Of a DNA stretch of 43,946 nucleotides, positions 9,846 through 32,922 are shown one piece after another. The stretch is from a virus. The translations under genes and the position numbers were made by a program. The notes under the pieces are model-generated. The model did not search any database. It saw only the letters and a list, made by a program, of their open reading frames with translations, and was not told where the DNA came from. The stretch covers positions 1 through 43,946 of IMG/VR virus record IMGVR_UViG_3300022226_000010; one strand, written 5' to 3'. Every line of letters begins with the position of its first letter. Positions within the stretch are counted from its first letter, which is position 1.

Positions 9846-10576
9846 TAACGCTTACCATAGCGTTTGCGGCGTTGTGTTCGCGCCATGTAATCCAGCGACC
9901 TTGCGAGACTGGAACGGAACATGCTCTGATCGAACTCCTTCTTGAAGACCCGGTTCCATGCCTCGGATACAACGGGCACCATCGCCGCCGTGACCGTATC
10001 GGCCATCGGCATTGTCTCGGTCGCCATCGTGGAAGTCAGGACAAGCTGTTTCTCATACAGCATGTTCCACGTTTGACCCGCCTGTTCCGTGGTGGGCTCC
10101 CTGTCCAGCCTCAAAGCCCCATCAACGGGGCTGATCGCCCAAAAACTCGGGTCGCCCGTGAAGTCGGTGGCCATCACCTGATCCCGCAACATGCGGGCGT
10201 AGCCTCCGGGGTATTCATAGGCCAGCAGCCCGGACGTGGCCCCCCTCATAACTCTGTCCCGGTAATCCTCCCCAGCTACACGCTCAAAGTCATTGGGGAA
10301 CGAATACTCCCGCTGGCCCGTCGCAAGCGTAAAGGTCGCGCTGGAAGCCTCGTTGGGAAATAGCCCCATCGCGTAGATTTCATGCAAGCCTTCCTGCCAA
10401 AGCTGAACGGCGAGGTCTATTTCCGTCTGCCTGCCCGAATCCGTGAATGCACCAGTCGCCACACCGCCAGTCGCCGTCGAGGCAATCGTGGAGGTGACAA
10501 GTTCGCCCGCATCGCCCTGGATTACCCTGACGCGCTTGAGCGTTTCATTGACTGCTTGCAGAAATGTAACGGCCAT
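9845..10576 (-). CDS. Head-to-tail connector (tail tubular protein A / gp11-like adaptor)
   Basis: 243 residues starting MAVTFLQAVNETLKRVRVIQ, a standard opening for podovirus tail adaptors. The body has ATFTLATGQREYSFPNDFER (about residues 85-105), the recurrent LxTGQxxYxLPxDFxR element, and ends in a basic tail (TQRRKRYGKR). It should bind under the portal and hold the nozzle. I chose ATG 10576, ten bases past the tailspike stop; an upstream ATG-like start at 10627 would overlap the tailspike and adds an unlikely leader. Confidence 0.8.
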   Translation of the reverse strand: MAVTFLQAVNETLKRVRVIQGDAGELVTSTIASTATGGVATGAFTDSGRQTEIDLAVQLWQEGLHEIYAMGLFPNEASSATFTLATGQREYSFPNDFERVAGEDYRDRVMRGATSGLLAYEYPGGYARMLRDQVMATDFTGDPSFWAISPVDGALRLDREPTTEQAGQTWNMLYEKQLVLTSTMATETMPMADTVTAAMVPVVSEAWNRVFKKEFDQSMFRSSLARSLDYMARTQRRKRYGKR

Positions 10577-10586
10577 TCGTTTATCC

Positions 10587-16956: not shown

Positions 16957-17363
16957 AACACACCAGCCGCCTTCAGTTCACTTCGCAACTCTTCCTCGCC
17001 CTTCTGAAAGGCGTTGACGCCATGTTCCTTGGCAAGCTGTTGAAGTTGCCGGAAATTGGGTTCCGCTTTCTTCGCGTAGGACTGCCAGTCAACATGCGGT
17101 TCATCCGCCGACCGGGACGCCTTCACAAGAAACTCGGGGCGCTTCGGCTGTTGCTGGAAGATACCCGCCGACTCCGCTGCGAGCATGGCAGGCAGAACTT
17201 CGGGTTTTGTCCCGTCCGTCTTGATTTCCACATCAAAAGCATACGCCAGATCGCGTAGCTGCTGAAGCCGCAGGCCGTTGAGTACGCTAGCCGTGTATAT
17301 CGGCTGACCCGGCAACTGCGGCGGAGCTACCGTTCGCTCTGGGAACACGTCGCTGAACTGCAT
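16953..17363 (-). CDS. Small protein with SAP/HeH-like helical motif
   Basis: 136 residues. The segment LNGLRLQQLRDLAYAFDVEI and following KPEVLPAMLA resembles the LxxLxxLAxxxGI...KxEL...L pattern of SAP or HeH motifs common in head-proximal phage proteins. A second similar helical pair (LQQLAKEHGVNAFQKGEEEL) sits at the C-terminus. The ATG at 17363 follows AAGGAAAAG and lies 77 bases inside the end of the DUF115-like gene. Confidence 0.65.
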   Translation of the reverse strand: MQFSDVFPERTVAPPQLPGQPIYTASVLNGLRLQQLRDLAYAFDVEIKTDGTKPEVLPAMLAAESAGIFQQQPKRPEFLVKASRSADEPHVDWQSYAKKAEPNFRQLQQLAKEHGVNAFQKGEEELRSELKAAGVL

Positions 17364-18132
17364 CTTTCTTTTCCTTCGGGCTAGAGTCTTCGGGTTCGTA
17401 TTCCGCTACAACCTCGCCGGATTCCTCGGTGACAACCTCTTTCTTGGTTGCCTTCTCGGGCGGTGTCGTGCCGAGCGTCGTCGGGTCGTACTTGGACCCA
17501 TCGGGCAGGTTGATGATCGGCTGTTCCGAGTATCCGTAAATACCCTTACCAACCTCAACCGCGTCAAACAGGCTGGTTGCTTCAGGCAGGACAATCGACA
17601 TGCCGGAAGCAGACGCAAGCGCCATCCATGCTTCTGTGCAGCCTCTCCCGCCCTCCGCGTAATTGCGGTTTGGATAGGTGAAGTCGCAACCGTACATCTT
17701 CAGGGTTTTGACGCCCTTCCAGATTGCATACGCAACCGCCATCGCCACGCCGTTGTTGAAATACGGCTTGCCGAAGATCGGCATACTCAGCGCCGTAACC
17801 TCGTCAATCGGATAATCGTAACTGTTGGGAACGACGCCCCGCGTTGCATTGGTCGTCAGAACCGGCGTGCCGTATGACCGCAAGGCCGCAAACAAACCCG
17901 GCTTGAAGTCTTCCTGCTCTGCAAGATTGTCCATCCAGATAACCACATCATGACGGATAACATTCGCCGCCATGTTGATCGCCCATACCTCGTCGCAATG
18001 GCTGGGCTGGTATTCCTGGGTAAGCGTTTCCGTGAGATAGCTGGTAATCGACGGCCCCATACCAATCAAGGCCACCGTCCCGCCGCCGCGCTCCACCTTG
18101 GGGTGGTGCTTTAGTAGTCTTTTTTTAGCCAT
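17287..18132 (-). CDS. DUF115/MptE-like protein, glycosyltransferase-type fold, in capsid-tail operon
   Basis: 281 residues. The N-terminus has VALIGMGPSITSYLTETL (about residues 20-37), the GxGPS loop of DUF115/Maf and related sialyltransferase-like folds. It is followed by DEVWAINMAA, DVVIWMDN and NNGVAMAVAYAIWKGVKTLK with MYGCDFTYP (about 127-155), the second conserved block of the family. The last 70 residues are charged and disordered. DUF115 proteins occur in flagellin-glycosylating Maf proteins and in many phages near capsid genes. With a nonulosonic-acid gene set in the same phage, transfer of such a sugar is a reasonable but unproven idea. It is the first gene after a strong terminator. 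Confidence 0.6.
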   Translation of the reverse strand: MAKKRLLKHHPKVERGGGTVALIGMGPSITSYLTETLTQEYQPSHCDEVWAINMAANVIRHDVVIWMDNLAEQEDFKPGLFAALRSYGTPVLTTNATRGVVPNSYDYPIDEVTALSMPIFGKPYFNNGVAMAVAYAIWKGVKTLKMYGCDFTYPNRNYAEGGRGCTEAWMALASASGMSIVLPEATSLFDAVEVGKGIYGYSEQPIINLPDGSKYDPTTLGTTPPEKATKKEVVTEESGEVVAEYEPEDSSPKEKKDAVQRRVPRANGSSAAVAGSADIHG

Positions 18133-18191: not shown

Positions 18192-18572
18192 CTATGCAGA
18201 GCCGGTGGCCGTTGCCACCGTGGCACCCGTATTCTCTTCCAGGCTCCAAACACCGTTGAACTGCCGCAAACGAACAATGTCCGTCGCAGCGGCGAAAATC
18301 AGCATTCCGGTAGAAGTCCCGGTTAGCACCAAACTCGCGGTGCCGGTGGCCGTCGCCTGGACGATCAACGTGCGATTTTCATAATTGCTGTCAGTCGCCA
18401 GAAGATAACGGTTCACACCAACCGTTGCCGCCGTTGACATGCCCAGATTATGAACATCATACGTCGGGTCCAGCGATTGAAGCGCCGTGGCCGTGTTCCC
18501 GGTATAACTTTTTACCGAGCGCGGCTGACCTTCCGAAACCTGAGTACCTGCGCCTACTACTGTTACAGTCAT
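18192..18572 (-). CDS. Capsid-associated beta-rich small protein (decoration/stabilisation candidate)
   Basis: 126 residues from ATG 18572, chosen because GGAGG lies about 8 bases upstream; a longer frame to 18620 would overlap the capsid gene. The product is Thr/Val/Gly-rich (VTVVGAGTQVSEGQPRSVKS, SLVLTGTSTGMLIFAAATDI). Directly after the major capsid gene and before the terminator it is probably made in large amounts, as expected for a decoration protein. No family named with certainty. Confidence 0.7.
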   Translation of the reverse strand: MTVTVVGAGTQVSEGQPRSVKSYTGNTATALQSLDPTYDVHNLGMSTAATVGVNRYLLATDSNYENRTLIVQATATGTASLVLTGTSTGMLIFAAATDIVRLRQFNGVWSLEENTGATVATATGSA

Positions 18573-18574
18573 GA

Positions 18575-19654
18575 TTATGCCTCCAACTTGCTTGCAGTAT
18601 GGCGGATGACCCGGACCCAAGCGCTGTTGAGAATCAACCCGGTGTGCCAGGACTTCCAGCCCATCGTGCTGATTTCGTTGAACGGATCGGCGGAACCGGC
18701 TGAACCCTTGGAATGATTAATCATCATCACGCCAGGAAGACGGTCGCCCGCCTGATAGATTTCCTTGGTGTGGTTCATCCCAAAGCCGAGACTGCCAACC
18801 GCTTCCTGACCGAGAATGACGGTGTTGTAAACGTCATACTGGGTCGCGGACCCGGTTGTCCGGCCCGCAGCGGTCGAAGTGCCGGTGATGGACTGCCCTG
18901 CGGTCGAGTCGATGCTTGCCTCGGTGGTGGAGACGAAGCGGACGTTACCAACCGCACCAAACTCGCCGTTGGCGATAGAGGTCTGCCCGGCATACTGCTC
19001 AACAGGCTGGAAGCCCGTCAAAAGCCGGATATCCTCTTCCACATCGACGTGACAGATACCCCAGTAGGCGGGCCTGATCGGCGTGGTGTTGGTATTCGCA
19101 GAGCCGGTTGTCATCGGCGTGAACATCATCGCGATATTGCGATTCAGCGCATTACCGGCCACGGTGATGTCGGACCGCGTGATCCCCGCCCCGGCAATTC
19201 CGGTCGCCGTGGTCGCGGCCCCGCCGAAGATAGCGGTGGCGTTGTCTTCCATGACGTTGCGTTGCAGGCGGTTCAGCGATTGACCGGCGTTAATGCCGAG
19301 AACTTCAGCGAGCTTGTTTGTCTGGCCGTTGAAGTTAACGAGGTCAACTTCTTCGTTCAGATAAATGAACACACCGAATTTCTGGACGGTCGCGGTCAGA
19401 TCGGTAACGGTCGGCTGTGTGCCTTGCCGTGTCGGGAAGTTAAGCGATCCCGTCAATTCCGCGAGAGGCGTTGTCGTCGGGGTCAGGTTCTCGATCCGTC
19501 GCCACTTGGCTGTAAATGTTCCCTGATGTTCCGCTATCGTCGCCGGAACCGAACCGACGAAATGCGGGCACCGTGCCTTCGCGTTGCGAAGCAAGGTCAT
19601 CTGGAATTTAACATCTACCGGACCAGCAATCTCCGTTGTCGTGGTAATCGGCAT
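18575..19654 (-). CDS. Major capsid protein, N4-gp56-like family
   Basis: 359 residues. The N-terminus MPITTTTEIAGPVDVKFQMT and the segments KWRRIENLTP, KFGVFIYLNEEVDLVNFN, RPAYWGICHVDVEEDIRLLT and YDVYNTVILGQEAVGSLGFG are characteristic of N4-gp56 type capsid proteins, an HK97-fold group found in many podoviruses. The C-terminal MGWKSWHTGLILNSAWVRVI is also typical. It follows the scaffold gene by 15 bases and precedes the decoration candidate by 2. High expression is implied by the terminator after the next gene. Confidence 0.9.
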   Translation of the reverse strand: MPITTTTEIAGPVDVKFQMTLLRNAKARCPHFVGSVPATIAEHQGTFTAKWRRIENLTPTTTPLAELTGSLNFPTRQGTQPTVTDLTATVQKFGVFIYLNEEVDLVNFNGQTNKLAEVLGINAGQSLNRLQRNVMEDNATAIFGGAATTATGIAGAGITRSDITVAGNALNRNIAMMFTPMTTGSANTNTTPIRPAYWGICHVDVEEDIRLLTGFQPVEQYAGQTSIANGEFGAVGNVRFVSTTEASIDSTAGQSITGTSTAAGRTTGSATQYDVYNTVILGQEAVGSLGFGMNHTKEIYQAGDRLPGVMMINHSKGSAGSADPFNEISTMGWKSWHTGLILNSAWVRVIRHTASKLEA

Positions 19655-20306: not shown

Positions 20307-20538
20307 AAATCGTCGAATCTCCGACAGGAGACTTCAGCAGAAAATCTATAATCCTCCGCTCACCTTCAATAACGCCGCTCAAATAGACGTAGCGGCTGGT
20401 TTGCTCATCCAAAGGCTTGCTCTGGTTGTAGCTGGGCAAGGATGTCCTCGGTAGCGCCCTCAACATCTCCGGGAACGCCGGGTTCTGCCGAAGGTTGGCC
20501 AGCACCGCCCTGTGTGCCGCCGATAAATCTGCTGGCAT
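20305..20538 (-). CDS. Small protein overlapping the portal 3' end
   Basis: 77 residues from ATG 20538, preceded by GGAGG with 8-base spacing. The first 134 bases overlap the portal gene in another frame; the unique part encodes SRYVYLSGVIEGERRIIDFL and ends KSPVGDSTI. The good ribosome site, the non-overlapping conserved-looking tail and the place between portal and scaffold support it as real. Function unknown. Confidence 0.65.
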   Translation of the reverse strand: MPADLSAAHRAVLANLRQNPAFPEMLRALPRTSLPSYNQSKPLDEQTSRYVYLSGVIEGERRIIDFLLKSPVGDSTI

Positions 20539-22291
20539 TCTGAATGCCTCCAAGTTTGTACGCCTCTTCCGCTATTTCCTCGAAAGATACCTCGAACGGC
20601 TTGCCCATCTGCGCCGCCTGTGCCGCCATCTGAATGACGAACTGCGAGGCCGACAGGAAGTTGCCCGCCCGCTCCCTTTCGTTCAACACGCCAGCGGAAC
20701 CGTGGACGTTGAAGATAATATTGTCCGGCAGATCGGCGGCGGTCAGGTTAACCCAGCCCTCAATACCGCCTGCATTCACGGAAATCGCCTGCTTGCTTTT
20801 CATCACGCTTTTGATGATCTCCCATTCCATGTAAAGAATGGTGGTCAGCGGGCCTTGCTCCACGGCAGTTACGAAATCGTCCGTCCGGGCGATACCCCGA
20901 GAGGCTTCCAGTTCCACGCCTCCCGTCGTGGTGTGGGATTTAACCGGCGCACCGCGTCTCGCGTCATTCGCGCCCGTCACGTCTTCATACAACTTCAACA
21001 TCATCGCCAGGGCACCCGACGCCTCCGCCATGTTGCCGATATCCAGCGTTTCCACCGCATTCGGGCTATCGGCGGGAATCATGGCTCCGGGGAACAGTTC
21101 CGGGCCTCCCGTCGCGGCGAAATTGGGGTCGTGCCGGTCGTAGGTAGCGGCAGGCTGGCTTGCGAACCGGCTTGCGGCGAGAAGATCGTTCATGATCGCC
21201 GTGCCCGCTTCCTGCAACGGCTGGCCCTTCATCAAGGGCGATGCCCCGTAAGGCGAATCCACCTTGTCCCGCATATAGTTACCAACAACGTAGGAACGGA
21301 ACGGCACGGGATTCTCGCGCATCCTGATAACCCGCACCAATCCTTGCCCTACCGCGATGGTAATCAGGAAGTTCGGGAGGTAAATACTGCCGCTGCTCTT
21401 GGGAATGACGAAATCGCCCTCGCCCTCGATCAACCGGACCATCCGGTTCGCGCTCTCGGGGATCATGTCGTTGATCTGCTTGGGCATCCAGCCGCGCTCT
21501 TTCCCGCCGCGCTTCGCCGCAAGCAAGAGGCTGTCAAGCCGCTGCCACGACGCCCTCAGCGTAAGCGGGGCGATCATAACGCCCTCATGGGCACCTGTCG
21601 GGTTGATTTCCAGATAGGTATCCCGGATCGAACACGGGATAACGGCCGGACCCTCCATGCCGTCGTTCTTGTTGCCCCGGAAGTCCATCGTGAACTTGGA
21701 CGTTTTGACCGGGCGGACACGAACGACGCCCGTTCCGTACTTAATCATCTCCGCGTCGAACAGGTCCATCTGCGTTCTGAAATCATATTGACGGTGATAA
21801 TGGTCCATCGTCACCTTGCTCAGGACGTTCGCCGTCTCCTGGTCCAGATCGACTTGCTGCGCCAGCCCTTTAGCCGAAAGCCCCCCAGGAAGCTCGACAT
21901 CCTCGGCGTCCGTGAAGCCGCCCCCGGTCAGAAGCGCGGATTTCTCGCGTTGAGTCTGCCATCGCTTCGCATATGCGTCATTCAGGTCTGCGGAGACGGA
22001 AAACCATTCCGTTCCACGGGGAAACTTCAGACGCCGCGTATCCGCACCGATGACCTCCAGCGCGTTGAATTGCAAGGGGAGTTCCGTATCCGGATACCAG
22101 TCCTTCGCCGTACCGGACCGGATATCGCGGGTCACGGGCGTCATAGATATCTGGCGGTCGATTTCGCCCCACAACTCTTCAAGGCTCTTGCGCTTCGTTT
22201 TCCGCCGCTCAAACTCCGCGTTAACGTAATCGCCGAGCGTGGCCAGATCGTTCTTGTTAAACCTGCGCTTTTCCTCGACCTTTTCGGGCAT
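20405..22291 (-). CDS. Portal protein (head-tail connector, podovirus type)
   Basis: 628 residues between terminase and scaffold genes. Typical portal features are the N-terminal helical region (DLATLGDYVNAEFERRKTKR), DWYPDTELPLQFNALEVIGA, the central DSPYGASPLMKGQPLQEAGT near residue 360, and the helical VTGANDARRGAPVKSHTTTG GVELEAS segment (about 455-482). It forms the dodecameric DNA channel on which terminase and the tail adaptor dock. The last 50 residues (QGGAGQPSAEPGVPGDVEGA) are low complexity and overlap the next gene. Start ATG 22291 shares a base with the upstream TGA. Confidence 0.9.
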   Translation of the reverse strand: MPEKVEEKRRFNKNDLATLGDYVNAEFERRKTKRKSLEELWGEIDRQISMTPVTRDIRSGTAKDWYPDTELPLQFNALEVIGADTRRLKFPRGTEWFSVSADLNDAYAKRWQTQREKSALLTGGGFTDAEDVELPGGLSAKGLAQQVDLDQETANVLSKVTMDHYHRQYDFRTQMDLFDAEMIKYGTGVVRVRPVKTSKFTMDFRGNKNDGMEGPAVIPCSIRDTYLEINPTGAHEGVMIAPLTLRASWQRLDSLLLAAKRGGKERGWMPKQINDMIPESANRMVRLIEGEGDFVIPKSSGSIYLPNFLITIAVGQGLVRVIRMRENPVPFRSYVVGNYMRDKVDSPYGASPLMKGQPLQEAGTAIMNDLLAASRFASQPAATYDRHDPNFAATGGPELFPGAMIPADSPNAVETLDIGNMAEASGALAMMLKLYEDVTGANDARRGAPVKSHTTTGGVELEASRGIARTDDFVTAVEQGPLTTILYMEWEIIKSVMKSKQAISVNAGGIEGWVNLTAADLPDNIIFNVHGSAGVLNERERAGNFLSASQFVIQMAAQAAQMGKPFEVSFEEIAEEAYKLGGIQNASRFIGGTQGGAGQPSAEPGVPGDVEGATEDILAQLQPEQAFG

Positions 22292-22563
22292 CAGATCAGA
22301 CCTTTCTCATCCAGGAGTTCCATCAAGCCCGAAGCGTCATTGATTAATACCTGCCGGACATCTTCCAACGACGTGTCTTCCTTAAACTCAATGTCGCGCG
22401 CCTTGTCGCGATATCCCCAAAGGCCGACGATATTCCCGTCAGCGTTGGTTCCGTGTGCAAGATAGATTATTCCGAAATCTCCTTCCACTCGCTCCATTCG
22501 CAGGCGGTCCGTGATGATATTCCGGGCGATCCTCTCCAGACGGGCGAGGCTTATGTCCTCCAT
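22291..22563 (-). CDS. Small conserved-looking protein between terminase and portal
   Basis: 90 residues, MEDISLARLERIARNIITDR at the start, FGIIYLAHGTNADGNIVGLW in the middle and an acidic C-terminus. Overlaps the terminase end by 13 bases and the portal start by one (TGATG). No known domain; its constant coupling to both suggests a packaging or assembly accessory. Confidence 0.7.
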   Translation of the reverse strand: MEDISLARLERIARNIITDRLRMERVEGDFGIIYLAHGTNADGNIVGLWGYRDKARDIEFKEDTSLEDVRQVLINDASGLMELLDEKGLI

Positions 22564-24002
22564 GCCCTGCCCCCCACGATTGGCCGCGCCGGTTTTCTGG
22601 TCGCCACCGCGCCATGCGATTTCGTCGCGGCGTACCGCCGCATCACGAACGCATACCGGGTTGCGCTCATGATATCATCATACGAATCCACCACCTTGCC
22701 GTCGTCCCTGTGATAAAGCCGCTTTTCCTCAAACCAGTCACTCAGGGTGGAAAATACCTTGAACTTGCCCACCCGCATCCATTCGTACATCTCGATCAGC
22801 CCGGCCTCCCGGCTGTTCTGACGTTCGTCCTTATAATGCGCGTGTTCCTTCAACATGGTGCAGCCGTGGTCCCGGAACTGATCCTTCAGAGCCACCCCGG
22901 TTCCCTTGTCTCTCTGCAACCCGTCATGCGGCCACGATACGGGTATCCATGCGCCGTGCTTCTTCAGCGCCGCCGCGTGGTAAACCGATGTTTCGTTGGA
23001 CCTTTTATAACAGTCGTAAACATAAAAGGTGTCTTCGTCGCGGTCCCAGGCGCAAAACGCCGTCGCGTGCGGATGGTCGATGCCGAAATCAATCCCGTTA
23101 ATCCGTGCGAAATGATCGGGTATCTGGAAGGGCGGGCAGGAGATGTCTTCATCCTTGACCGGGAAGATCGCGCCCGACCCCAGAAGGGGCGTTCCTGACG
23201 CACGTGTGTCCCGTTCGTGAGACGGGTAGGTGGCCATTAATTCGTTGCGGGCCTTCTCGTCCAGATGCGGCGCATCGTCCCAGCCGACGTTTTTGATCCA
23301 TATGCTCGCGCCGATCTCGGGATTCAGGAAGTGGCGCACGACTTCAGACGGGCCTTTTAAGGGCGTAAAGGTCAACAGAACGCAGCCCCGCTTGTCGAGA
23401 ATACGGGTCAGCCCTTCCGTGTAAATGTCCATCGTCGGTTCTTCATCGAACCACACGAAATGACACGCGCGGCCCTGCCATTCCTTTCTTTGCTGCTCAT
23501 ACGTCTTCAGGGTGATGGAGGATGCCCCGCCTGTCTTGTGCTGGACGCGGATCGTATCCACAACGTCCGAGACGCCGGCCTGACGCTTCTTCCAGTCGAT
23601 GATGTATTCCTTGGGTATCCAGCCGGTGCCCTCTTCCCCGACCACCCCTAATAGAGACTCTTGAATGATGTCTCGCGAGGCCGTCCACGATTCAGATCCA
23701 CACCAGATCGTTGTCGGTTCCTCGAACCTCCGGCCTTCCCACCAACTCGGATACAGTCCCGTGGCGTGGCAAGCGACTTCCGCAGCCGCAGTTTGCGTCT
23801 TGCCCACCCTGTTCGCGGCCATCAGCAGGCGCTCGGTCTTCTCCCCGCCCGCGTTGTGAACCTCGATCTGCCACAAATACGGCCCGATATTGTCCGGGCC
23901 GAACGCCTTCGCATGGTCGTAGGGCTGCTTGTACTGGAAGAAAAGCATTTGGTTTGCTTTTTTGGCTTCCAGGTTAGCCAAGACGGTTTGGATTTCGCTC
24001 AT
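22551..24002 (-). CDS. Terminase large subunit (ATPase and nuclease)
   Basis: 483 residues. Walker A AANRVGKT at 62-69, Walker B FVWFDEE at 182-188 with catalytic glutamate, coupling motif LLTFTP near 209-214, and the RNase H-like nuclease opening INGIDFGIDHPHATAF at 301-316. A late acidic block DSYDDIMSATRYAF near 442-455 supplies further nuclease residues. It cuts and pumps DNA into the procapsid through the portal. The gene starts at ATG 24002 with ATGA overlap to the epimerase, so it is translated as part of the sugar operon. Its small subunit lies 8.4 kb upstream, which is unusual. Confidence 0.95.
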   Translation of the reverse strand: MSEIQTVLANLEAKKANQMLFFQYKQPYDHAKAFGPDNIGPYLWQIEVHNAGGEKTERLLMAANRVGKTQTAAAEVACHATGLYPSWWEGRRFEEPTTIWCGSESWTASRDIIQESLLGVVGEEGTGWIPKEYIIDWKKRQAGVSDVVDTIRVQHKTGGASSITLKTYEQQRKEWQGRACHFVWFDEEPTMDIYTEGLTRILDKRGCVLLTFTPLKGPSEVVRHFLNPEIGASIWIKNVGWDDAPHLDEKARNELMATYPSHERDTRASGTPLLGSGAIFPVKDEDISCPPFQIPDHFARINGIDFGIDHPHATAFCAWDRDEDTFYVYDCYKRSNETSVYHAAALKKHGAWIPVSWPHDGLQRDKGTGVALKDQFRDHGCTMLKEHAHYKDERQNSREAGLIEMYEWMRVGKFKVFSTLSDWFEEKRLYHRDDGKVVDSYDDIMSATRYAFVMRRYAATKSHGAVATRKPARPIVGGRAWRT

Positions 24003-24979
24003 GCGGCCTTGATCTTGTCCAGGTTGGAATACCAGTCCATGTATTCCGTCATGCCGCGCTCGATGTCGTATTGAGGTTTATATCCCACTTTATCGCGGAT
24101 ATGGCGGCAGGACATTGTACCACGTTCCGGCTTTTCCGGGTCTTTCTCCGCATACAGAACCTTCGTCGGGAACCGTTTCATGACGATATCCGCGAGTTTA
24201 TTGAGGCTTGTCGCGTTCTCTCCCGTGAGATTGAACGTCTCGAACATACCCGGTTCCCATTCCTGGTTTTCAACCGCGCACCGGAGTCCCATCACCAGAT
24301 CGGCGATGTAGGTGAAGTCGTGTTCTTCGGTTCCATCGCCGTGGATCGTAATCGGCTCGCCCCGCATGGCTTTTTCAATAAATACCTGCGTCACCCTCCC
24401 CGATACGCACCTTGGACCGTAGAGCGCCTGCGGGCGGATAATCGTCAAGGGCAGGCCATACGTCTGATTGTAGGCAATCGCCATTCTCTCCCCGGCGAGC
24501 TTGAGATTACCGTAGATGCCTTCAGGGGTGAGTTCTTCCTTCTCGTTGATGACGGGCTGGGAGAAATCCCCGTAAACCGTCGAGGACGAGAAATACATCA
24601 ACCCACATCCTAATGCGCGGGCAACGTCGAGGCTGTTCTCCAGCGTCCTAAGGGAATGATCGAAGGTGGTGTGCGGGTCTTTGTTTGCCACGGTGATATG
24701 GGCAATCGCCGCCGTATGGATAATCAGATCGGGCTGAAAGTGCGCGAGGGTGCGGGACAGCAGATCGTAATCCCGTGCATCCGCGCGGATCAGGGGAATC
24801 CCGGCAATATCGAGCAGCGCCAGCCGTTCCTCGGCAAAGGCCTTGTGGGCGTCGTTTTCGAGAACCATCAGGTTATTCACCATCAGGCTGTCAACGGCGG
24901 CAACGGTATGGTTTCTGTTCTTCAGGTGAAGGGCGAGATGGTGGCCGATGAAGCCGCAGCCAACGAGGGCGATTTTCAT
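23999..24979 (-). CDS. NAD-dependent nucleotide-sugar epimerase/dehydratase (extended SDR)
   Basis: 326 residues. N-terminal NAD motif ALVGCGFIGHHLA (residues 4-16), catalytic SSSTVYGD near 131-138 and YGNLK (Y156, K160), then TIRPQALYGPR-like substrate-loop sequence near 190. It acts on an NDP-sugar, as 4-epimerase or possibly dehydratase; the exact reaction cannot be read from sequence. It is coupled by ATGA overlaps to the aminotransferase upstream and the terminase downstream. Likely an enzyme of the phage glycan set rather than of virion assembly. Confidence 0.85.
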   Translation of the reverse strand: MKIALVGCGFIGHHLALHLKNRNHTVAAVDSLMVNNLMVLENDAHKAFAEERLALLDIAGIPLIRADARDYDLLSRTLAHFQPDLIIHTAAIAHITVANKDPHTTFDHSLRTLENSLDVARALGCGLMYFSSSTVYGDFSQPVINEKEELTPEGIYGNLKLAGERMAIAYNQTYGLPLTIIRPQALYGPRCVSGRVTQVFIEKAMRGEPITIHGDGTEEHDFTYIADLVMGLRCAVENQEWEPGMFETFNLTGENATSLNKLADIVMKRFPTKVLYAEKDPEKPERGTMSCRHIRDKVGYKPQYDIERGMTEYMDWYSNLDKIKAA

Positions 24980-26061
24980 AGAACTTCCTTAAAAGTTTGC
25001 GCCATATACTTGATGGCCTTTTCAGTGAGATGCGGTCCGACCGAGAAACATAGATTCTGGCTGGATATCTCTTCCGCGTTCGGGAACTGCCCGATCTGGT
25101 GGTGTTGCGCGTAAACCTGTGTATGCGGCACCGGCTGCGCGTAATAAACGCTGGTTTCCACATTTTTCCTCTTCATTTCCGCCTTTACACGGTCCCTGTC
25201 AGGGCCGACGAAGACCGAAAGAGCATAATGCCCGCTGTTCATCTGCTCGAACGCAGAAAGTTCCTTCGACAGCAGATTGTAGTTGTTTTTTCTCGCATTC
25301 ATGATGCTGGGCAGCTTTTTCATCTGTGAAACGCCCAGCGCACCCTGCATTTCCGTCATCCGGTAGTTCAATCCTAGCATAATCCAGTCCCGCGCGGCCA
25401 CAATCAGCCCGGTCGGGCTTTCATGCCGTTGCCCGAAATGCCGTCTGGCGCGGATATTCTCGGCTATCGCGGGGTGGCGGGTCAGCAGCATACCCCCTTC
25501 CCCGGTGGTGATGTGTTTTGCAGGGTAAAACGAGAACGTCCCGGCATGACCCCACAGGCCCACATGGGTGCCCTCTATGAAGCTCCCGAGAGCCAGGGCG
25601 CAGTCTTCCACCACGAACAGGTCGTGTTGCCGCGATATCGCCATGATTTCCGGCATATCGCAGGGCTTTCCAAGGTAATGAACCACAAAAATAGCCCCGG
25701 TGCGGGGCGTTATGGCGTTTTTGATGGCTTCCGGCGTTATATTGCCTGTTTCCCGGTCGCAATCGACAAAAACGGGGATTCCCCCGACCAGGGAGACGGC
25801 CATTGCGGTAGCCGGATGGGTTAAAGCGGGAACGATCACCTCGAAGCCGGGTTTTAACCCGCAGAGTGCGGCCAGATGTAGAGCACCCATGCAAGAAGTG
25901 GTAGCCAAAGCCATTCCACCGCCGCAAAAATCGCTAAAAGATTGCTCGAAGGCGCGGACATTTCCCGCATTAGTGAGTTGAGAATTTCGTAAGGAACACG
26001 AAACAGATAAAATATCATCATCGTCTATTTGCGGCACCGCGAACCGCACTCTCATACCCAT
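24976..26061 (-). CDS. DegT/DnrJ/EryC1-type PLP-dependent sugar aminotransferase
   Basis: 361 residues. VEDCALALGS (150-159) is the aspartate motif that contacts the PLP ring nitrogen, and TFSFYPAKHITTGEGGMLL (175-193) contains the PLP lysine K182. The family normally has His after VEDCA; here it is Leu, which may alter specificity. These enzymes put an amino group on keto-sugars such as NDP-4-keto-6-deoxy-hexoses (PseC, LegC, perosamine synthase). Two in-frame ATGs exist at 26061 and 26055; the second overlaps the upstream stop exactly as ATGA. Confidence 0.9.
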   Translation of the reverse strand: MGMRVRFAVPQIDDDDILSVSCSLRNSQLTNAGNVRAFEQSFSDFCGGGMALATTSCMGALHLAALCGLKPGFEVIVPALTHPATAMAVSLVGGIPVFVDCDRETGNITPEAIKNAITPRTGAIFVVHYLGKPCDMPEIMAISRQHDLFVVEDCALALGSFIEGTHVGLWGHAGTFSFYPAKHITTGEGGMLLTRHPAIAENIRARRHFGQRHESPTGLIVAARDWIMLGLNYRMTEMQGALGVSQMKKLPSIMNARKNNYNLLSKELSAFEQMNSGHYALSVFVGPDRDRVKAEMKRKNVETSVYYAQPVPHTQVYAQHHQIGQFPNAEEISSQNLCFSVGPHLTEKAIKYMAQTFKEVL

Positions 26062-26870
26062 TTTGCTTCTTCCTGCATTTGTCTCCGCCCCTCATCGATC
26101 ATCAGGGCGACAACGGTGGAGTAAATCCCGCTATTGTGATTTTCCTTCTTCTCCAGCATCTCCACGAAATCGAATATACACGCCTGCTTGTCTGTGGGTT
26201 CGTGATTTACCACAGTAATTCCGCCTTTTGTGCCGTGTATCGTGATTCTGTGGTTGTGCTTGTCCACTCCGGTGCCGCCATCCACGGTAAAGTTGCAGAT
26301 TCCGCCATTATCCAACTTACATAGGGCGGAAACCGTGTCAGGACCGGGAAACCCCGGCGCGGAGAGGTTCACGCCCGCCACCATGCTCGGCTCGATCTCC
26401 ATTCCCGTAAGCCAGACAACCAGATCAACCATGTGAATCATGCCGCCCATGACCAGACTGTAGTCAGGATTGCGATTTCTCCACGATTCGTACAGTTTAT
26501 GTGTCCGTCCCCAGTTATATGAGGCTTCTATTCTGTAGATTTCGCCAAAATCCTTTATTTTTTCCTTCAAATCAACGAATAACGGCTGATATCGAAGCGG
26601 AAAGTTCTGCCAGATGCACTTTTCGTCCGCCAAACCCATGATTTCCATCATATCGGCGCGATTTGTCGCCAAGGGCTTCTCGCAAAACACATGCGCGCCC
26701 GATTGCAGGGCTTCTATGACGTATTCCGCGTGGGTATCGTCGGGAGACGCGATGGAAACGATGTCGGGGCGTACATCGACAATCTTCACGCCGCACTCTC
26801 GGTAGGCCGCGACATGCTCACGGCCCATGTTGCCCTCGGCACCGATTACTTTCGCAGTAAGTCGAGACAT
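26052..26870 (-). CDS. Gfo/Idh/MocA oxidoreductase with shortened Rossmann domain
   Basis: 272 residues. CEKPLATN at 63-70 is the family's EKP motif, and GGMIHMVDLVVWLTG near 141-155 contains the catalytic-region histidine. The N-terminal Rossmann part is short: after GAEGNMGREHVAAYRECGVK comes DIVSIASPDDTH almost at once. About 30 residues (second strand and helix) usual in the family are missing, which could affect cofactor binding. Relatives reduce or oxidise sugars in nonulosonic-acid and amino-sugar pathways. It overlaps the cytidylyltransferase by 25 bases. Confidence 0.8.
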   Translation of the reverse strand: MSRLTAKVIGAEGNMGREHVAAYRECGVKIVDVRPDIVSIASPDDTHAEYVIEALQSGAHVFCEKPLATNRADMMEIMGLADEKCIWQNFPLRYQPLFVDLKEKIKDFGEIYRIEASYNWGRTHKLYESWRNRNPDYSLVMGGMIHMVDLVVWLTGMEIEPSMVAGVNLSAPGFPGPDTVSALCKLDNGGICNFTVDGGTGVDKHNHRITIHGTKGGITVVNHEPTDKQACIFDFVEMLEKKENHNSGIYSTVVALMIDEGRRQMQEEAKWV

Positions 26871-27445
26871 TCAGCCGCCGTGTATTCGGTGTGGGGTTTG
26901 GTCATGCGGGAGACGATCAGGCGGGCGCGTTCGAGGTCTGCGGGGGTATCGACGGTCAGACGGTCACGATGGTGGAACCAAAGGCCAAGATGTTCCCTCT
27001 CATCACCTTGCATGGATGGTTCCGCCCGTAGAAAGGCCTCTGTATCAAAGCCTTCTGCCTGATTTCCGTGCGCATGGCCGTTATATTGAAAATACACAAA
27101 ATCCTGAAGGCCATTCGCAGCCTTGTCTACCGATTCAGCATCAATAAACGGGCTATCCGCGCACACCCGCACGAAACCGTCACAGGGGTATTCAGCGAGA
27201 ACCTTGACGAAGCGGGCGGCGGGTTCCTCGGGGCCATCAACCCAATATCGCTCCGAACCGTCCTTTTTTTGCGCTTTGTCATATTTCGGGCCGTTCCAAG
27301 CCACGATTACCTTGTCAATATTCCTGGCTAAATCACATCGAGACAGAACCATTCCCAATAACGTACTATCGCCGATCTTCTCCAGCACCTTCCCCGGCAG
27401 ACGGGTGGAGCCCATGCGGGCCTGGATGATGCAGTTAATTTTCAT
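26846..27445 (-). CDS. Sugar cytidylyltransferase, SpsF/NeuA-like
   Basis: 199 residues. The opening IIQARMGSTRLPGKVLEKIG is the signature of SpsF and CMP-nonulosonate synthetases; VRVCADSPFIDAESVD near 92-107 is the second conserved segment (the D of the metal site). The usual reaction is CTP plus a sugar acid to CMP-sugar and pyrophosphate. With a NeuB-like synthase two genes upstream this points to activation of a nonulosonic acid. It is shorter than bacterial NeuA (about 220-240). Confidence 0.85.
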   Translation of the reverse strand: MKINCIIQARMGSTRLPGKVLEKIGDSTLLGMVLSRCDLARNIDKVIVAWNGPKYDKAQKKDGSERYWVDGPEEPAARFVKVLAEYPCDGFVRVCADSPFIDAESVDKAANGLQDFVYFQYNGHAHGNQAEGFDTEAFLRAEPSMQGDEREHLGLWFHHRDRLTVDTPADLERARLIVSRMTKPHTEYTAAECLDLLRK

Positions 27446-27914
27446 GGAAAACCTCTTCCCGCTTGATTTCCTTCATTCCAAGCCTTTCATAAAGTTTTCT
27501 TGCAGGCACATTGTCCGTGTATGTCCCGGCTGTGATTGTTCCCCCTACATGCCTGATAAGGCGCTCCGCCAACCCCAATCCAGCGGCGGCGGGGTGAACG
27601 CCGATCAGTTCAATCGTGCCGTCATTTCTTATGATCGCGAATGCAGCCGGATATTTCCCGAGAGCATATGCGTATTTTCCCTTTATCCATTTCTTTGTTT
27701 CGGCATACGCATCGATCCTGGTATCGCGCCACAATCGGCCACTAAAATCCACCGAGCCGATACAGTCAGACACATAGCAAGCATCTACCCAGCGCACATG
27801 CTTGTCAGGAATACGAATTACCCTGCCACGATATGTTATCCGAGTGCCCATATGCCGCCAGCTAAGGGGGCCGGGGTCCAGATAGTCAAGAACCACGCAT
27901 TTCGGCAACGGCAT
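27435..27914 (-). CDS. GNAT-family N-acetyltransferase
   Basis: 159 residues. ELIGVHPAAAGLGLAERLIR (about 101-120) is the beta4/acetyl-CoA loop (V..xxGxGL), and TDNVPARKLYERLGMKEIKR (133-152) is the C-terminal GNAT helix. In nonulosonic-acid pathways such enzymes (for example PseH) acetylate the amino group made by the aminotransferase. That is the likely role here by context. It overlaps the NeuB-like gene by 29 bases and the cytidylyltransferase by 11. Confidence 0.8.
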   Translation of the reverse strand: MPLPKCVVLDYLDPGPLSWRHMGTRITYRGRVIRIPDKHVRWVDACYVSDCIGSVDFSGRLWRDTRIDAYAETKKWIKGKYAYALGKYPAAFAIIRNDGTIELIGVHPAAAGLGLAERLIRHVGGTITAGTYTDNVPARKLYERLGMKEIKREEVFHEN

Positions 27915-28590
27915 CTCTGAACTCGCATATCAGTTTCAATTCATCGGTTGTCAGGTTTACGGGGCCGTCCGGGCCTTCTTTATCCCCGAAATGGACCTCG
28001 ACAAACTCAACGCCTCTCGCAATGGCGTCGATTGCGGGCCAGGGGGTGCCGGAGTGGTCGGAGAGGCCGTCATACGATGCACCCCATTCGGCCCTGTTCA
28101 GGGGTGTCGGGTATTCAGATACACAGTAGAGCGCGTAATGTTCTTGTTCGGGGTATTCGTGTCTGCCTAGCAAATCAAAGCCGTTGGAGATGATAAACGG
28201 CCCCGGCACCTGATCGTAGGGGTAGGTCTTTGCCGCCCTGCTCGCCACCTTGTAGTATTTAGGTTCGAGTTTCTTCAGCCATTCGATGCCGGTGGGTTGA
28301 AAGACGGAGGCGAGGAAGTCGATTTCTTTGTTGCCGCAATAGTTTTTAACCGTTTCCCACTCCCAGAATTGCATTGCCGAATTATTCCAGCGCGGGACAC
28401 GATTTTCATCACCTTCAATTGGGCAAAACAGAGGTTCGTCACGAATAAACATCTGAAACTTGACGGCATCCGCGCCAGCGCGCTTGGCCCAATCAACAAG
28501 CTTGCACGCTAATCGAAAGTCGCCCTTGGGCGGCAAGGTATCTTGCCCAATATGCCCCGTTCCGGCTTCGGCAATAATATATGCGCTCAT
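27886..28590 (-). CDS. NeuB-like nonulosonic acid synthase lacking the SAF domain
   Basis: 234 residues from ATG 28590, which overlaps the methyltransferase stop as ATGA (a longer frame to 28653 exists). MSAYIIAEAGTGHIG, AGADAVKFQMF, PKYYKVASRAAK, GLSDHSGTPW and FVEVHFGD are the ordered NeuB barrel motifs, including both metal-binding histidines. These enzymes condense phosphoenolpyruvate with an amino-hexose to give a nine-carbon acid. Bacterial NeuB is about 340 residues with a C-terminal antifreeze-like SAF domain; this protein ends after the barrel. EKHF is EVHF here. It may be a stripped-down synthase. Confidence 0.8.
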   Translation of the reverse strand: MSAYIIAEAGTGHIGQDTLPPKGDFRLACKLVDWAKRAGADAVKFQMFIRDEPLFCPIEGDENRVPRWNNSAMQFWEWETVKNYCGNKEIDFLASVFQPTGIEWLKKLEPKYYKVASRAAKTYPYDQVPGPFIISNGFDLLGRHEYPEQEHYALYCVSEYPTPLNRAEWGASYDGLSDHSGTPWPAIDAIARGVEFVEVHFGDKEGPDGPVNLTTDELKLICEFRDAVAEMRGS

Positions 28591-29417
28591 GGGAACATCT
28601 CCTGCCAGGATTTGAAGAATTGCAGGACTTCTTCGGGGTTGTCGTGCCAGCAATCTTCCGGCTTGGTTTCGCTGCTCCCCAATGCGTGCATTATCAGCCA
28701 GTCGCTATCCTTGTATTGATTGGCTGCGACATTTTTAAAGCCCGCCTTCAAAGCGGCGTGCCCGAGGCTATTAACCGAAAACCGGAAACAATGCAGGTCA
28801 GGAGGGTTCTTTCCTACATAAGAAGACAGCGGTTTCTTGAACGGCACCAGAATCCTCGATCCCGTCGCCACGACAAGATGACCGTCAGGCTTCAGGAATG
28901 ATTTCGCGCGTTTCAGGAAGTCGATGCAGTCGCCGCAGTTCTCCAGCGTCCAGAGGACGGTTACGATGTCGAACTTCTCTGATAATTGCTTCTGCGCCTG
29001 TTCAAGCGTTCCTGGATAACAATTGAAGAACTTTCTGACCTGTTCGGCGTTAGATTCACAGGGCTCAATACCCCACATGCTTGATCCGCAACCAAGTCCC
29101 TCCACAATTTCCAGAAACGCACCCTCACCGGCCCCGATATCCAGAACCGACTTGCCTTCAAGGCCGATATTCTGGTCGATCCACTCGGCTACATAGGTGA
29201 GCCTCGCCTTCACCATCGGCCATGCGGAGGTATATCCTTCCCCCCATACATCATCCCATGCCTTCGCGATAGCCTCGGGGGAGCGTCTGTAGGGGACATA
29301 TACGAAGCCGCAATTTCCACATACGGCGGCACCGGGCACCATGTCGAGATATTGGGGGTTATCCTCTTCGCAGAGGTCGCAGTTGTGTTTTACTGCGGTG
29401 GGGTCCTGAGTTGCCAT
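28587..29417 (-). CDS. SAM-dependent methyltransferase with N-terminal zinc-ribbon, sugar-modifying type
   Basis: 276 residues. An N-terminal four-cysteine ribbon (CDLCEED, CGNCGFVYV, residues 13-40) precedes the Rossmann motif I SVLDIGAGEGAFLEIVEG at about 89-106. LWTLENCGDCIDFLKRAK and PDGHLVVATGS follow as motifs post-III. The N-terminal ribbon plus class I fold is the layout of NDP-sugar C-methyltransferases and related enzymes in surface-glycan clusters. The acceptor is unknown. It overlaps the amidotransferase by 28 bases. Confidence 0.8.
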   Translation of the reverse strand: MATQDPTAVKHNCDLCEEDNPQYLDMVPGAAVCGNCGFVYVPYRRSPEAIAKAWDDVWGEGYTSAWPMVKARLTYVAEWIDQNIGLEGKSVLDIGAGEGAFLEIVEGLGCGSSMWGIEPCESNAEQVRKFFNCYPGTLEQAQKQLSEKFDIVTVLWTLENCGDCIDFLKRAKSFLKPDGHLVVATGSRILVPFKKPLSSYVGKNPPDLHCFRFSVNSLGHAALKAGFKNVAANQYKDSDWLIMHALGSSETKPEDCWHDNPEEVLQFFKSWQEMFP

Positions 29418-30520
29418 ATGCCGTCCGTCCTTTCCCAGATTTCCGGGTTTCTGTGTTGTTCAACGATGTTCTCGAATTCCCTGTGGTCCATGTCCATGTA
29501 TTTCAGGACATCCGGCAGATACGATTGCGGGAACTCCCCATCGTATTTACGGGCGAGTTCCAATCCCTGCTCACGGGTCATGTGGCCCCTTTGAATGAGC
29601 CTTGAGGCCATCCGGGTTGCCCTGCCGAAGCCGAACTTGATGTGCATCATGTAGAAGTCGAGGTCGTCTATCTTATCGTCTATCGAATCGAAGCCCTCGA
29701 ACGAACCGTCCGATTTGCCCCACCAGTAATTATCGGCGTGGTAATTGACGTTCGTTCCGTTCTGGGCCTGCCCGAAATCCATCTTCTCTTTGCAAAGTTG
29801 GGCATTCTCGTAAATGTCCCACGGGAAGTACCATGAGAAATACACGGCCTCGATTCCGTCGACGTTATCGGGGTAGATGTACGGGAACATATGTGCTTCG
29901 GTCAGTCCATCCGTCGCCCAGTTTCGGGCGTCGTCGCCAACCTGATTTTCAAGTACTTCGTCAAGATCGCGCCGCCGACGGTGGTCTTCAGAAAGAACCA
30001 GACCGCCATATTCGGACTCACCATGCTCAGCATAGACGACAAGCGGAACGCCAAGGTCCACAGCCGTTCGGATCGGCACCGCGTTAACGCCAGCGTCGTA
30101 ATGCTGCTTAGGATGGCCACGCTCAATAAAGAAACGACGAGCCAGCTTTCGTGAGACATGTTGGTTTACTCCCCAATAGAGAATGTCGAACCCGTGGTCC
30201 CGGACGGAAGTCCAGTTATGTTGGCCCACTTCCGTCCATAGAAGCTGCCCGTAGGTGACGAGAAGCGGGTTGTAGCCCATGTTTTTCAGGTTGAGTGCGA
30301 TGGCGGCTGAGTCCTTCCCGCCGCTGAACGGGACCACCATGTCGTAGGCTGGGTGCTTCTTGTGTTTCTCCACCAGCGCGGCGAATTGGCCTGCACGGTC
30401 GTCGTAATCAATCGCCTTCCGTTCCTCCGCCCAGAGGCAGGCGTTGCACACGTCGCCGGTGAAGACGATCCGGGGCCGGGAGGACGGCATGAGGCATTTG
30501 GAGCAATACTGGATTTTCAT
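29390..30520 (-). CDS. PP-loop N-acetyl-sugar amidotransferase (WbpG/PseA-like)
   Basis: 376 residues. The PP-loop SGGKDSAAIALNLKNMGY begins at residue 66; an N-terminal cysteine set (YCSKCLMP at 5-12 and CNAC at 25-28) is typical of the family. Further conserved parts are PLLVTYGQ, HWG-like GVNQHVSRK and the DFG/KYDGEFP segment near the C-terminus. WbpG with HisH2 and HisF2 converts an N-acetyl to an acetamidino group on UDP-mannuronate derivatives; PseA makes acetamidino pseudaminic acid. The nearby HisF-like gene supports the same chemistry. No glutaminase partner is in the window. Confidence 0.85.
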   Translation of the reverse strand: MKIQYCSKCLMPSSRPRIVFTGDVCNACLWAEERKAIDYDDRAGQFAALVEKHKKHPAYDMVVPFSGGKDSAAIALNLKNMGYNPLLVTYGQLLWTEVGQHNWTSVRDHGFDILYWGVNQHVSRKLARRFFIERGHPKQHYDAGVNAVPIRTAVDLGVPLVVYAEHGESEYGGLVLSEDHRRRRDLDEVLENQVGDDARNWATDGLTEAHMFPYIYPDNVDGIEAVYFSWYFPWDIYENAQLCKEKMDFGQAQNGTNVNYHADNYWWGKSDGSFEGFDSIDDKIDDLDFYMMHIKFGFGRATRMASRLIQRGHMTREQGLELARKYDGEFPQSYLPDVLKYMDMDHREFENIVEQHRNPEIWERTDGIWQLRTPPQ

Positions 30521-30609
30521 GGAAGGAAAAGCTCCGCGTTAAACACCCAAAAAACCAGAAACACAGCCGCGACAAACAAAATAAAAATCAGATGATGCCT
30601 TGGATTCAT
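30517..30609 (-). CDS. 30-residue single-pass membrane microprotein
   Basis: ATG 30609 overlaps the HisF-like stop as ATGA, and its own TGA at 30519-30517 overlaps the amidotransferase ATG as ATGA. The product starts MNPRHHLIFILFVAAVFLVF, one hydrophobic helix with a short basic start and an acidic end (FNAELFLP). Exact coupling on both sides and a pure membrane sequence argue for real translation. It could anchor the adjacent enzymes to the membrane; that is inference. Confidence 0.6.
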   Translation of the reverse strand: MNPRHHLIFILFVAAVFLVFWVFNAELFLP

Positions 30610-31334
30610 AATCTCACCACATGTCCGTTTTCATGAAGATATGTCTTGGCGGCATTCAGGGAGGTTTTCGTGAAGTGGTGAATAACGGACGTGGAGCAGG
30701 CATCGGCCCCCGCGTCGAAGCCCTCGGCCATATGCCTCCAGCCGCCACAGCCCCCGGAGATAATCACGGGGATTTTCACGCTGGCGACGATATCCTGGAG
30801 AAGCTCCAGGTTATATCCCCGCAAGGACCCGTCGCGGGTCATATCCATTAGATAGATTTCCCCCGCCCCATGTTCCTCGGCTTCCTGCGCCCATTCGATA
30901 GCCGTATGATCGGTACAGGTACGGCCCTGATCGATGTGGACAATACCGTTCTTCACGTCTATCGAGACGACAACCGATTGGGAACCGAATTTCTCGGCAA
31001 GCTCTGAAATGAATTCTGGTCTGCGGAAGGCTTCTGAATTGATGACGACCTTATCCGCCCCTAGATTCCGCATGAGGTGTTGAGCATCTTCCAAAGTCCT
31101 AACCCAACCACCAACAGCACAAGGCAGAAAGCACTGATCGCCAAAAGCAAGTACGCGATCATAAAAATCCCGTCTTGCTGTTTTTCGTCTGGTAACATCG
31201 AGAATAACCAATTCATCCGCCAACTCCATATCCACAAAGTTCATCGTGTAGAGCCGGTCCGGGTTAAAGTTCTTGGTCCGGTACAGCGACCCCCCGTTCA
31301 GCGTCAGGGTTACGATGACTCTTTTGGTGAGCAT
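30606..31334 (-). CDS. HisF-like protein of the HisF2/WbuZ group (ammonia-channel partner of sugar amidotransferase)
   Basis: 242 residues, aligned by eye with HisF from residue 1. MLTKRVIVTLTLNGG has threonine where HisF has the catalytic Asp11. The second acid (SIDVKNG, D126, HisF Asp130) and the phosphate-binding MTRDGSLRG and SGGCGGWRH loops remain. Loss of Asp11 is expected when the protein serves sugar amidotransfer rather than histidine biosynthesis. The amidotransferase gene lies 86 bases downstream. HisF normally takes ammonia from HisH; no HisH is present. Confidence 0.85.
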   Translation of the reverse strand: MLTKRVIVTLTLNGGSLYRTKNFNPDRLYTMNFVDMELADELVILDVTRRKTARRDFYDRVLAFGDQCFLPCAVGGWVRTLEDAQHLMRNLGADKVVINSEAFRRPEFISELAEKFGSQSVVVSIDVKNGIVHIDQGRTCTDHTAIEWAQEAEEHGAGEIYLMDMTRDGSLRGYNLELLQDIVASVKIPVIISGGCGGWRHMAEGFDAGADACSTSVIHHFTKTSLNAAKTYLHENGHVVRL

Positions 31335-32439: not shown

Positions 32440-32922
32440 TTAGTGGAATGTGTCCTTGGCGCTAAACTGGTCACGCAGCGCCTGGAGCGCCTTGTCGTCC
32501 AGAATGCCCTCAAGTTTTCCGATCAACACATCGCTATTGGCTATCTGCCGCACGTCTACGATATCTGACAATGCTCCTACGGATTGTCCTATTAACCGCT
32601 GAAAGCTTGCAAGTGCAGTGTAGTTGGCGGCGTCACGGGCTTCCTGTGCGTCGTCTATGAGGGATTGTACATATCGGCCGTGCGTTACGATATCCGCCTT
32701 GTTGGCGCTATCTAGCAGTGCTCTAAGCTTGGTTATAACTCGGGGGCGGCGTTCTATCTCACATGCCCTTGAACTGGCGTCTTCCGCCTTCAAGCGTGGT
32801 TTGTTCGCGGCTTGTCGATATGATTCAGCCTTGTTGAAACCACGTGCTCGAATAGCACAATATTTGCGCTCAAGCGGTGTTAGAACCTCGGATACATGTA
32901 CTTTGGCTAGTTTATCACTCAT
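32440..32922 (-). CDS. Terminase small subunit
   Basis: 160 residues. VLTPLERKYCAIRARGFNKA and ESYRQAANKP form the N-terminal helix-turn-helix of small terminases; ASSRACEIERRPRVITKLRA is the usual second block (xAxxxxxxPxVxxRIxEL). The rest is helical oligomerisation region. It recognises the packaging site and recruits the large subunit. The large subunit is separated by about 8.4 kb with 15 genes, whereas they are normally adjacent. Confidence 0.8.
   Translation of the reverse strand: MSDKLAKVHVSEVLTPLERKYCAIRARGFNKAESYRQAANKPRLKAEDASSRACEIERRPRVITKLRALLDSANKADIVTHGRYVQSLIDDAQEARDAANYTALASFQRLIGQSVGALSDIVDVRQIANSDVLIGKLEGILDDKALQALRDQFSAKDTFH

Follow-up and report, generated by a model that had tools for sequence, protein, structure and literature searches.

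Introduction

The closest described relatives of the locus reported here are the legionaminic acid pathway of Bacillus subtilis (sps; SpsM-C-D-G-E-F; PMC7439481), the acetamidino set WbuX/WbuZ/WbuY (WbpG/HisF2/HisH2; LpNASAT 8WEX, PMC10607449), and the Maf and CstII transferases, with Campylobacter maf4 as a companion of genes for cytidine monophosphate (CMP)-activated nonulosonates (PMC9298399). To these can be added mycobacteriophages, whose virions are glycosylated by phage genes, with glycans reported at protein C-termini (Freeman et al. 2023, as summarized in PMC11256854 and PMC12619734), and the prophage genes epaA/epaB, which epimerise pseudaminic acid (PMC12053666). Here we report an operon of nine sugar enzymes in the IMG/VR virus record IMGVR_UViG_3300022226_000010, whose 43,946 bases constitute the window of this analysis, together with a putative nonulosonate transferase gene beside the capsid gene. 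We lean, with modest confidence, towards the view that this phage produces, late in infection, an acetamidino-type nonulosonate in CMP-activated form and decorates its own virion with it.

Like the sps pathway, the operon brings together DegT, GNAT, NeuB/SpsE and SpsF types, but it is devoid of the dehydratase (SpsM) and the hydrolase (SpsG), its NeuB has no C-terminal region, and it is phage-borne, with WbuX, HisF, a methyltransferase and a short-chain dehydrogenase/reductase (SDR) added. A PP-loop/four-cysteine WbuX is accompanied by a HisF-like partner as in the WbuX/WbuZ/WbuY set, whereas the HisH/WbuY glutaminase was not found in nine related records and the phage WbuX belongs to a distant clade. 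The capsid-side protein appears to resemble Maf and CstII in its predicted fold and as a companion to CMP-nonulosonate genes, but differs from them in its missing Pfam match, in the absence of the conserved catalytic histidine, and in the position of its gene next to the phage capsid gene. As in the glycosylated mycobacteriophages, so far as the summaries cited above describe them, there are putative phage genes for virion-protein glycosylation; unlike those phages, the window phage also encodes dedicated donor-sugar synthesis, for another class of sugar. The nonulosonate enzymes are phage-borne like epaA/epaB, which alter the host capsule sugar in lysogens, whereas the window set includes the synthase and activation steps and lies by the packaging genes. 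The literature searched, with most subscription papers outside it, contained neither a phage nonulosonate pathway serving the phage's own virion nor a phage nonulosonate-donor pathway paired with a capsid-side transferase-fold gene, and there is a real chance that the system is distinct and repeatedly evolved, beyond known virion glycosylation.

Results

The nine enzymes and a 30-residue membrane peptide are encoded in one leftward operon of overlapping genes (23,999-31,334), which continues into the gene of the large terminase subunit (terL), with the small subunit gene (terS) upstream, in the order HisF-like protein, peptide, WbuX, methyltransferase, NeuB, GNAT, cytidylyltransferase, Gfo/Idh, DegT, SDR epimerase, terL. 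All nine enzyme open reading frames (ORFs) were recovered at the expected place and on the expected strand, with head-to-tail overlaps mostly of 3-29 nucleotides; these overlaps and the family-model matches (Table 1) bear out an earlier note on this DNA, which had described the enzymes and the peptide as a fully overlapping leftward set between terS and terL and had assigned the enzyme identities. Genes for portal, scaffold-like, major capsid, internal virion and pectate-lyase-fold tailspike proteins come next, on the same strand as terL. A location among genes for packaging and the head is consistent with a part in virion assembly, and expression of the operon is probably late. The identity of TerL, which is 42-49% identical to that of isolated Rhizobium, Vibrio and P22-group phages, is certain, and judged by this protein the phage is a P22-like virus. 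The window contains no RNA genes, no tRNAs and no integrase.

The second component lies beside the major capsid protein (MCP) gene. The predicted structure of the putative transferase has a core with a predicted local distance difference test score >90, and a PDB fold search placed CstII on top (1ro8/1ro7, expect value (E) 1.1e-5, probability 1.00, template modelling (TM) score 0.38-0.45), with a weak match to the Maf glycosyltransferase 5mu5 (E 0.008). Six CstII chains also head the list of a profile-to-PDB sequence search, each of them weak (E 0.12-0.19). By its predicted fold the protein probably falls in the CstII sialyltransferase / Maf / MptE superfamily; plain membership of GT42, Maf or MptE as a sequence family was rejected on the missing Pfam match, and the fold was used instead. 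Between this gene and the MCP gene sits that of a small threonine (Thr)-rich protein, most homologues of which keep an ATxATAT-like C-terminal end in the alignment; its structure model is beta-rich and weakly resembles the folds of tailspikes and capsid spikes.

The transferase-fold gene accompanies the nonulosonate synthase. All nine related records that encode NeuB, which represent 7 distinct phages, contain it, as against 0/4 related records lacking NeuB; several of the nine had fed the search profile, and three of the four negative records are short and incomplete. Among all NeuB-bearing viral records sampled, 27/73 contain a homologue (22/68 after removal of five picked for the match), as against 0/27 TerL-related records (Fisher 0.0003), although this control consists of shorter contigs from one TerL group and the length-corrected chance of zero is ~0.02.

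The association recurs in unrelated phages. One record (L275, record G057), of a different phage group by its TerL (phrog_2), has a nonulosonate pathway that is nearly complete immediately ahead of TerL (L275 92-4548), comprising NeuB, a UDP-sulfoquinovose-synthase-like SDR (UDP, uridine diphosphate), NeuC (241 bits against a curated cut-off of 236) and a PseF-like cytidylyltransferase, together with a methyltransferase; its genes for MCP, a Thr-rich protein and a transferase homologue (E 1.5e-65) are consecutive. In another (L113), with a capsid of family PF19821, MCP is followed by a small protein, a transferase homologue (E 2e-8) and then WbuX-HisF-PseB-SpsF-GNAT-NeuB-methyltransferase. A third (L138, 3595-10930), again with a different TerL, shows TerS, NeuB-PseB-DegT-GNAT-cytidylyltransferase-methyltransferase-WbuX and TerL, and its sister L186 (3005-11123) has the same gene types ahead of TerL. 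Across the pair, PseB, DegT, GNAT, NeuB, the cytidylyltransferase and WbuX are placed around TerS and upstream of TerL in gene order. PseB-like genes are thus present in L138, L186 and L113. The transferase-fold homologue was not found in L138, L186 or L139; two GT1-type glycosyltransferase genes follow MCP in L186, and L138 has similar ORFs. It is a tentative proposal, for which we would claim slightly less than even chances, that several unrelated tailed-phage lineages have assembled a 'self-sialylation' system consisting of a CMP-nonulosonate pathway before terL, a new CstII/Maf-fold transferase family by MCP and a Thr-rich acceptor.

The terS-terL site is a glyco-island. A chimeric contig is ruled out: an independent contig (L002) is 100% identical to half of the cassette, and at least six additional distinct phages, whose TerL proteins are 50-62% identical to that of the window, have nonulosonate cassettes at this position. 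The set lies before terL in four further distinct phages (L003/L004, TerL 62%; L006/L086, 60%; L082/L095, 58%; L174, 54%), and parts of it are present in L005 and L099. All nine enzymes occupy the same site in L174, in changed order and with HNH-type genes in between; terL of this record consists of two adjoining ORFs (L174 10370-11856; a frameshift or an assembly error). In L008 and L104, a single run of genes in the same order comprises a CMP-sialate-synthetase-like gene, a long NeuB, a methyltransferase, a Thr-rich protein, the transferase-fold gene and TerL; in L017, L018 and L029, the TerS-TerL interval or the position immediately ahead of TerL is occupied by glycosyltransferase-like genes. 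The island extends beyond nonulosonate genes in the complete circular public podovirus genome MW202713.1 (L274 777-7998), where a TerS-like gene is followed by a heptosyltransferase-type gene, a methyltransferase, DegT and TerL. Since distant relatives, L008, L017 and MW202713 included, keep sugar genes with other contents at this position, the constancy of the site and the variability of the inserted genes, proposed beforehand as a check, are both evident.

The cassette appears to have been mostly inherited together with the phages, because its enzymes are conserved within the ingroup (mostly 40-67% identity) to about the same degree as TerL (58-65%), portal and MCP, with L174 standing apart for nearly all proteins compared. 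The WbuX proteins of phages form one clade (support 100/99) in a tree in which bacterial relatives are at most ~33% identical, and recent capture from a bacterium is unsupported. Isolated phages almost entirely lack the trait, because WbuX has no match among 50,697 public isolate phage records; NeuB has a single weak match in the isolate phage records, to a prophage record.

The individual enzymes are recognizable and partly unusual. The window WbuX matches 8wex in the PDB (E 6.8e-60), and its PP-loop SGGKDS (66-71) and cysteines C6, C9, C25 and C28 (CXXC...CXXC) are invariant across four phages, with D at the [GN] position of the motif in the window protein. NeuB matches SpsE (1vli, E 7e-29) and PseI (8h2c, E 2.7e-27), and probably starts at ATG 28,590 (234 residues), which gives a 4-nucleotide overlap with the methyltransferase gene, rather than at the listed TTG 28,653. 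It scores far under the equivalog cut-offs of the N-acetylneuraminate and pseudaminate synthase models (93.9 vs 399.7 and 58.2 vs 340.3 bits), has no match to the C-terminal SAF domain and stops at the end of the NeuB domain model (237 of 241); it represents an unusual NeuB subfamily. The HisF-like protein likewise misses the HisF2/WbuZ equivalog cut-offs (WbuZ, the best NCBIfam model, 191 vs 299.7 bits; AglZ/HisF2, 166 vs 310), and PseC, the nearest equivalog model for DegT, is matched with 237 bits, under its cut-off of 423. A methyltransferase is present in every nonulosonate cassette looked at closely. Gfo/Idh is absent from L003 and L086, where in L086 a GT-D glycosyltransferase takes its place, and the place of the 30-residue peptide is taken by a longer membrane-type ORF in L086 and by none in L003. 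The earlier note had also reported that a 4,6-dehydratase and a UDP-sugar hydrolase are lacking. This holds for the window phage and its relatives: the SDR of the window has the motif SSSTVYG without TDE/TDK and scores far under the cut-offs of TIGR01181 and LegB, so that no PseB/LegB was recognized in the window, and the nine records of the window phage and its relatives have no TIGR03590 or PF02350 match for a PseG/NeuC hydrolase.

Further along the virion genes, the Thr/Ala composition of the large repeat protein is unusual among phage virion-type proteins.

Table 1. Positions of the cassette genes and of neighbouring packaging and head genes in the window, with the evidence for each (SAM, S-adenosylmethionine).
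Feature	Position	Strand	Evidence
Large Thr/Ala-repeat virion-type protein, 1,182 residues	12845..16393	-	22 TAT motifs
CstII/Maf/MptE-fold protein, putative nonulosonate transferase	17287..18132	-	Predicted fold
Small Thr-rich beta protein, candidate glycan acceptor	18192..18572	-	17.5% Thr; alignment; beta-rich model
Major capsid protein (MCP)	18575..19654	-	phrog_1357 E 5.5e-46
Portal / head-tail connector	20405..22291	-	phrog_332 E 2.3e-14
Large terminase subunit (terL), P22-like	22551..24002	-	PF03237 E 4.6e-27
Extended SDR, epimerase type	23999..24979	-	PF01370 149 bits; motif SSSTVYG
DegT sugar aminotransferase	24976..26061	-	PF01041 315 bits
Gfo/Idh/MocA oxidoreductase	26052..26870	-	PF02894, PF01408
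SpsF/NeuA-type cytidylyltransferase (CTP_transf_3)	26846..27445	-	PF02348 70 bits; substrate predicted
GNAT N-acetyltransferase	27435..27914	-	PF00583/PF08445
NeuB-type nonulosonate synthase, catalytic domain only	27886..28590	-	PF03102 76.2 bits vs cut-off 22.1
SAM methyltransferase	28587..29417	-	PF13489 (Methyltransf_23) 67 bits
N-acetyl sugar amidotransferase, WbuX/PseA/WbpG type	29390..30520	-	TIGR03573 254 bits vs cut-off 203.2
Single-span membrane peptide, 30 residues, MNPRHHLIFILFVAAVFLVFWVFNAELFLP	30517..30609	-	Sequence; ATGA overlaps on both sides
HisF/WbuZ-like protein, acetamidino type	30606..31334	-	PF00977 168 bits
Small terminase subunit (terS), upstream border of the island	32440..32922	-	phrog_51 E 5e-4 (weak); homologues in the equivalent position of L003 and L086

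Discussion

Donor synthesis is well supported. The host would supply an amino-sugar precursor, which DegT would aminate, the SDR epimerise and the GNAT N-acylate, after which NeuB would join it to phosphoenolpyruvate and the SpsF-type enzyme, with cytidine triphosphate, would yield a CMP-nonulosonate, a nine-carbon, sialic-acid-like sugar. The WbuX/HisF pair would turn an N-acetyl group into an acetamidino group, with ammonia presumably taken from the cell because no HisH was found, and the methyltransferase may cap the sugar; the exact sugar cannot be named. The CstII/Maf-fold protein would then transfer it to threonine residues of a protein on the virion surface; the small Thr-rich protein is the most likely acceptor, and the 1,182-residue repeat protein a possible second one. 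The acceptor is the weakest step of the scheme, and any benefit might lie in shielding of the particle, surface charge or adhesion.

Several observations weigh against this scheme. The hydrolase, the dehydratase and the glutaminase are all absent from the window phage, and no PF00117 match for a HisH partner of the HisF-like protein occurs in the nine related records. By analogy, the absence of PseG would not be fatal to the pathway: loss of spsG in B. subtilis lowered spore legionaminate and did not abolish it (PMC7439481). The transferase-fold protein has no Pfam match even at E 10, and its domain has no conserved histidine column of the GT42 kind. Its TM-scores are only ~0.4-0.5, partly because 55 tail residues are disordered, and MptE (8sd5, E 1.3e-4) nearly equals CstII as a fold match. 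Four phage records that lack NeuB (L100, L101, L102 and L106) have distant homologues, so that a strict dependence of the gene on NeuB is ruled out. That the Thr-rich protein is the acceptor is conjectured from where its gene lies and from its composition.

The homologues in these four records lie among virion genes, at ~9,940-11,330 in each; in L101 the transferase-fold domain is fused to a methyltransferase, and in the Microcystis phage PP496355 a transferase-fold match lies within a gene named methyltransferase.

The main rival explanation, which we regard as unlikely but deserving of serious attention, is that host transferases put the sugar on the host surface (O-antigen, capsule or flagellin), masking receptors or blocking superinfection, as prophages do in lysogenic conversion. 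Precedents are the Acinetobacter prophage epimerases epaA/epaB, which alter host nonulosonates (PMC12053666), and phage-borne O-acetyltransferases that do likewise (PMC6586298); moreover, the pectate-lyase-fold tailspike suggests that the phage probably binds a surface polysaccharide, and one relative (G005) has an integrase. However, a gtr-type glucosyltransferase-flippase set was not seen among the annotated genes of the window, the cassette lies in a packaging/head operon that is probably expressed late, and its tightly linked partners are the capsid-adjacent transferase-fold gene and the Thr-rich protein. The earlier note, whose account of enzymes, site and missing steps stands, had left virion decoration beside receptor masking and replacement of the host surface sugar, having missed both the fuller pathways (with PseB or NeuC) at the equivalent place in unrelated phages and the capsid-side transferase-fold gene with its Thr-rich neighbour. 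The co-occurrence of that gene and its Thr-rich partner with the cassette favours decoration of the virion over these two other roles.

It is less probable still that the transferase-fold protein has no connection with the cassette, being an MptE-like pyrophosphokinase or some other enzyme, and that the co-occurrence arises from shared ancestry only. The MptE fold match, a weak match of one distant homologue to PF01973 (E 0.024) and the occurrence of homologues in NeuB-less phages speak for it, but the co-occurrence is repeated in unrelated phages, with the frequencies and the imperfect control given above (22/68 vs 0/27, length-corrected ~0.02). To our knowledge, no transfer of CMP-nonulosonate to DNA is known. 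That the pathway makes a nucleotide-linked sugar for hypermodification of phage DNA is very improbable: virus-encoded glycosyltransferases that place glycans on DNA are known (work cited in PMC12619734, as far as that summary goes), but no base-hypermodification enzyme was recognized in the genes examined, the operon is located with head genes, and the expected product of NeuB and the cytidylyltransferase is a CMP-nonulosonate.

The sialic acids of animal viruses come from the glycosylation machinery of the host; these phages appear to encode both the synthesis of the donor and its transfer. If decoration of the virion by the phage's own nonulosonate pathway is true, it would add a new class of sugar to phage particles and explain the presence of nonulosonate genes in viral metagenomes. 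Glycoengineering would also gain a new transferase family and perhaps a compact pathway for acetamidino sugars, and the purpose of virion glycans, be it shielding, charge, adhesion or stability, would become testable.

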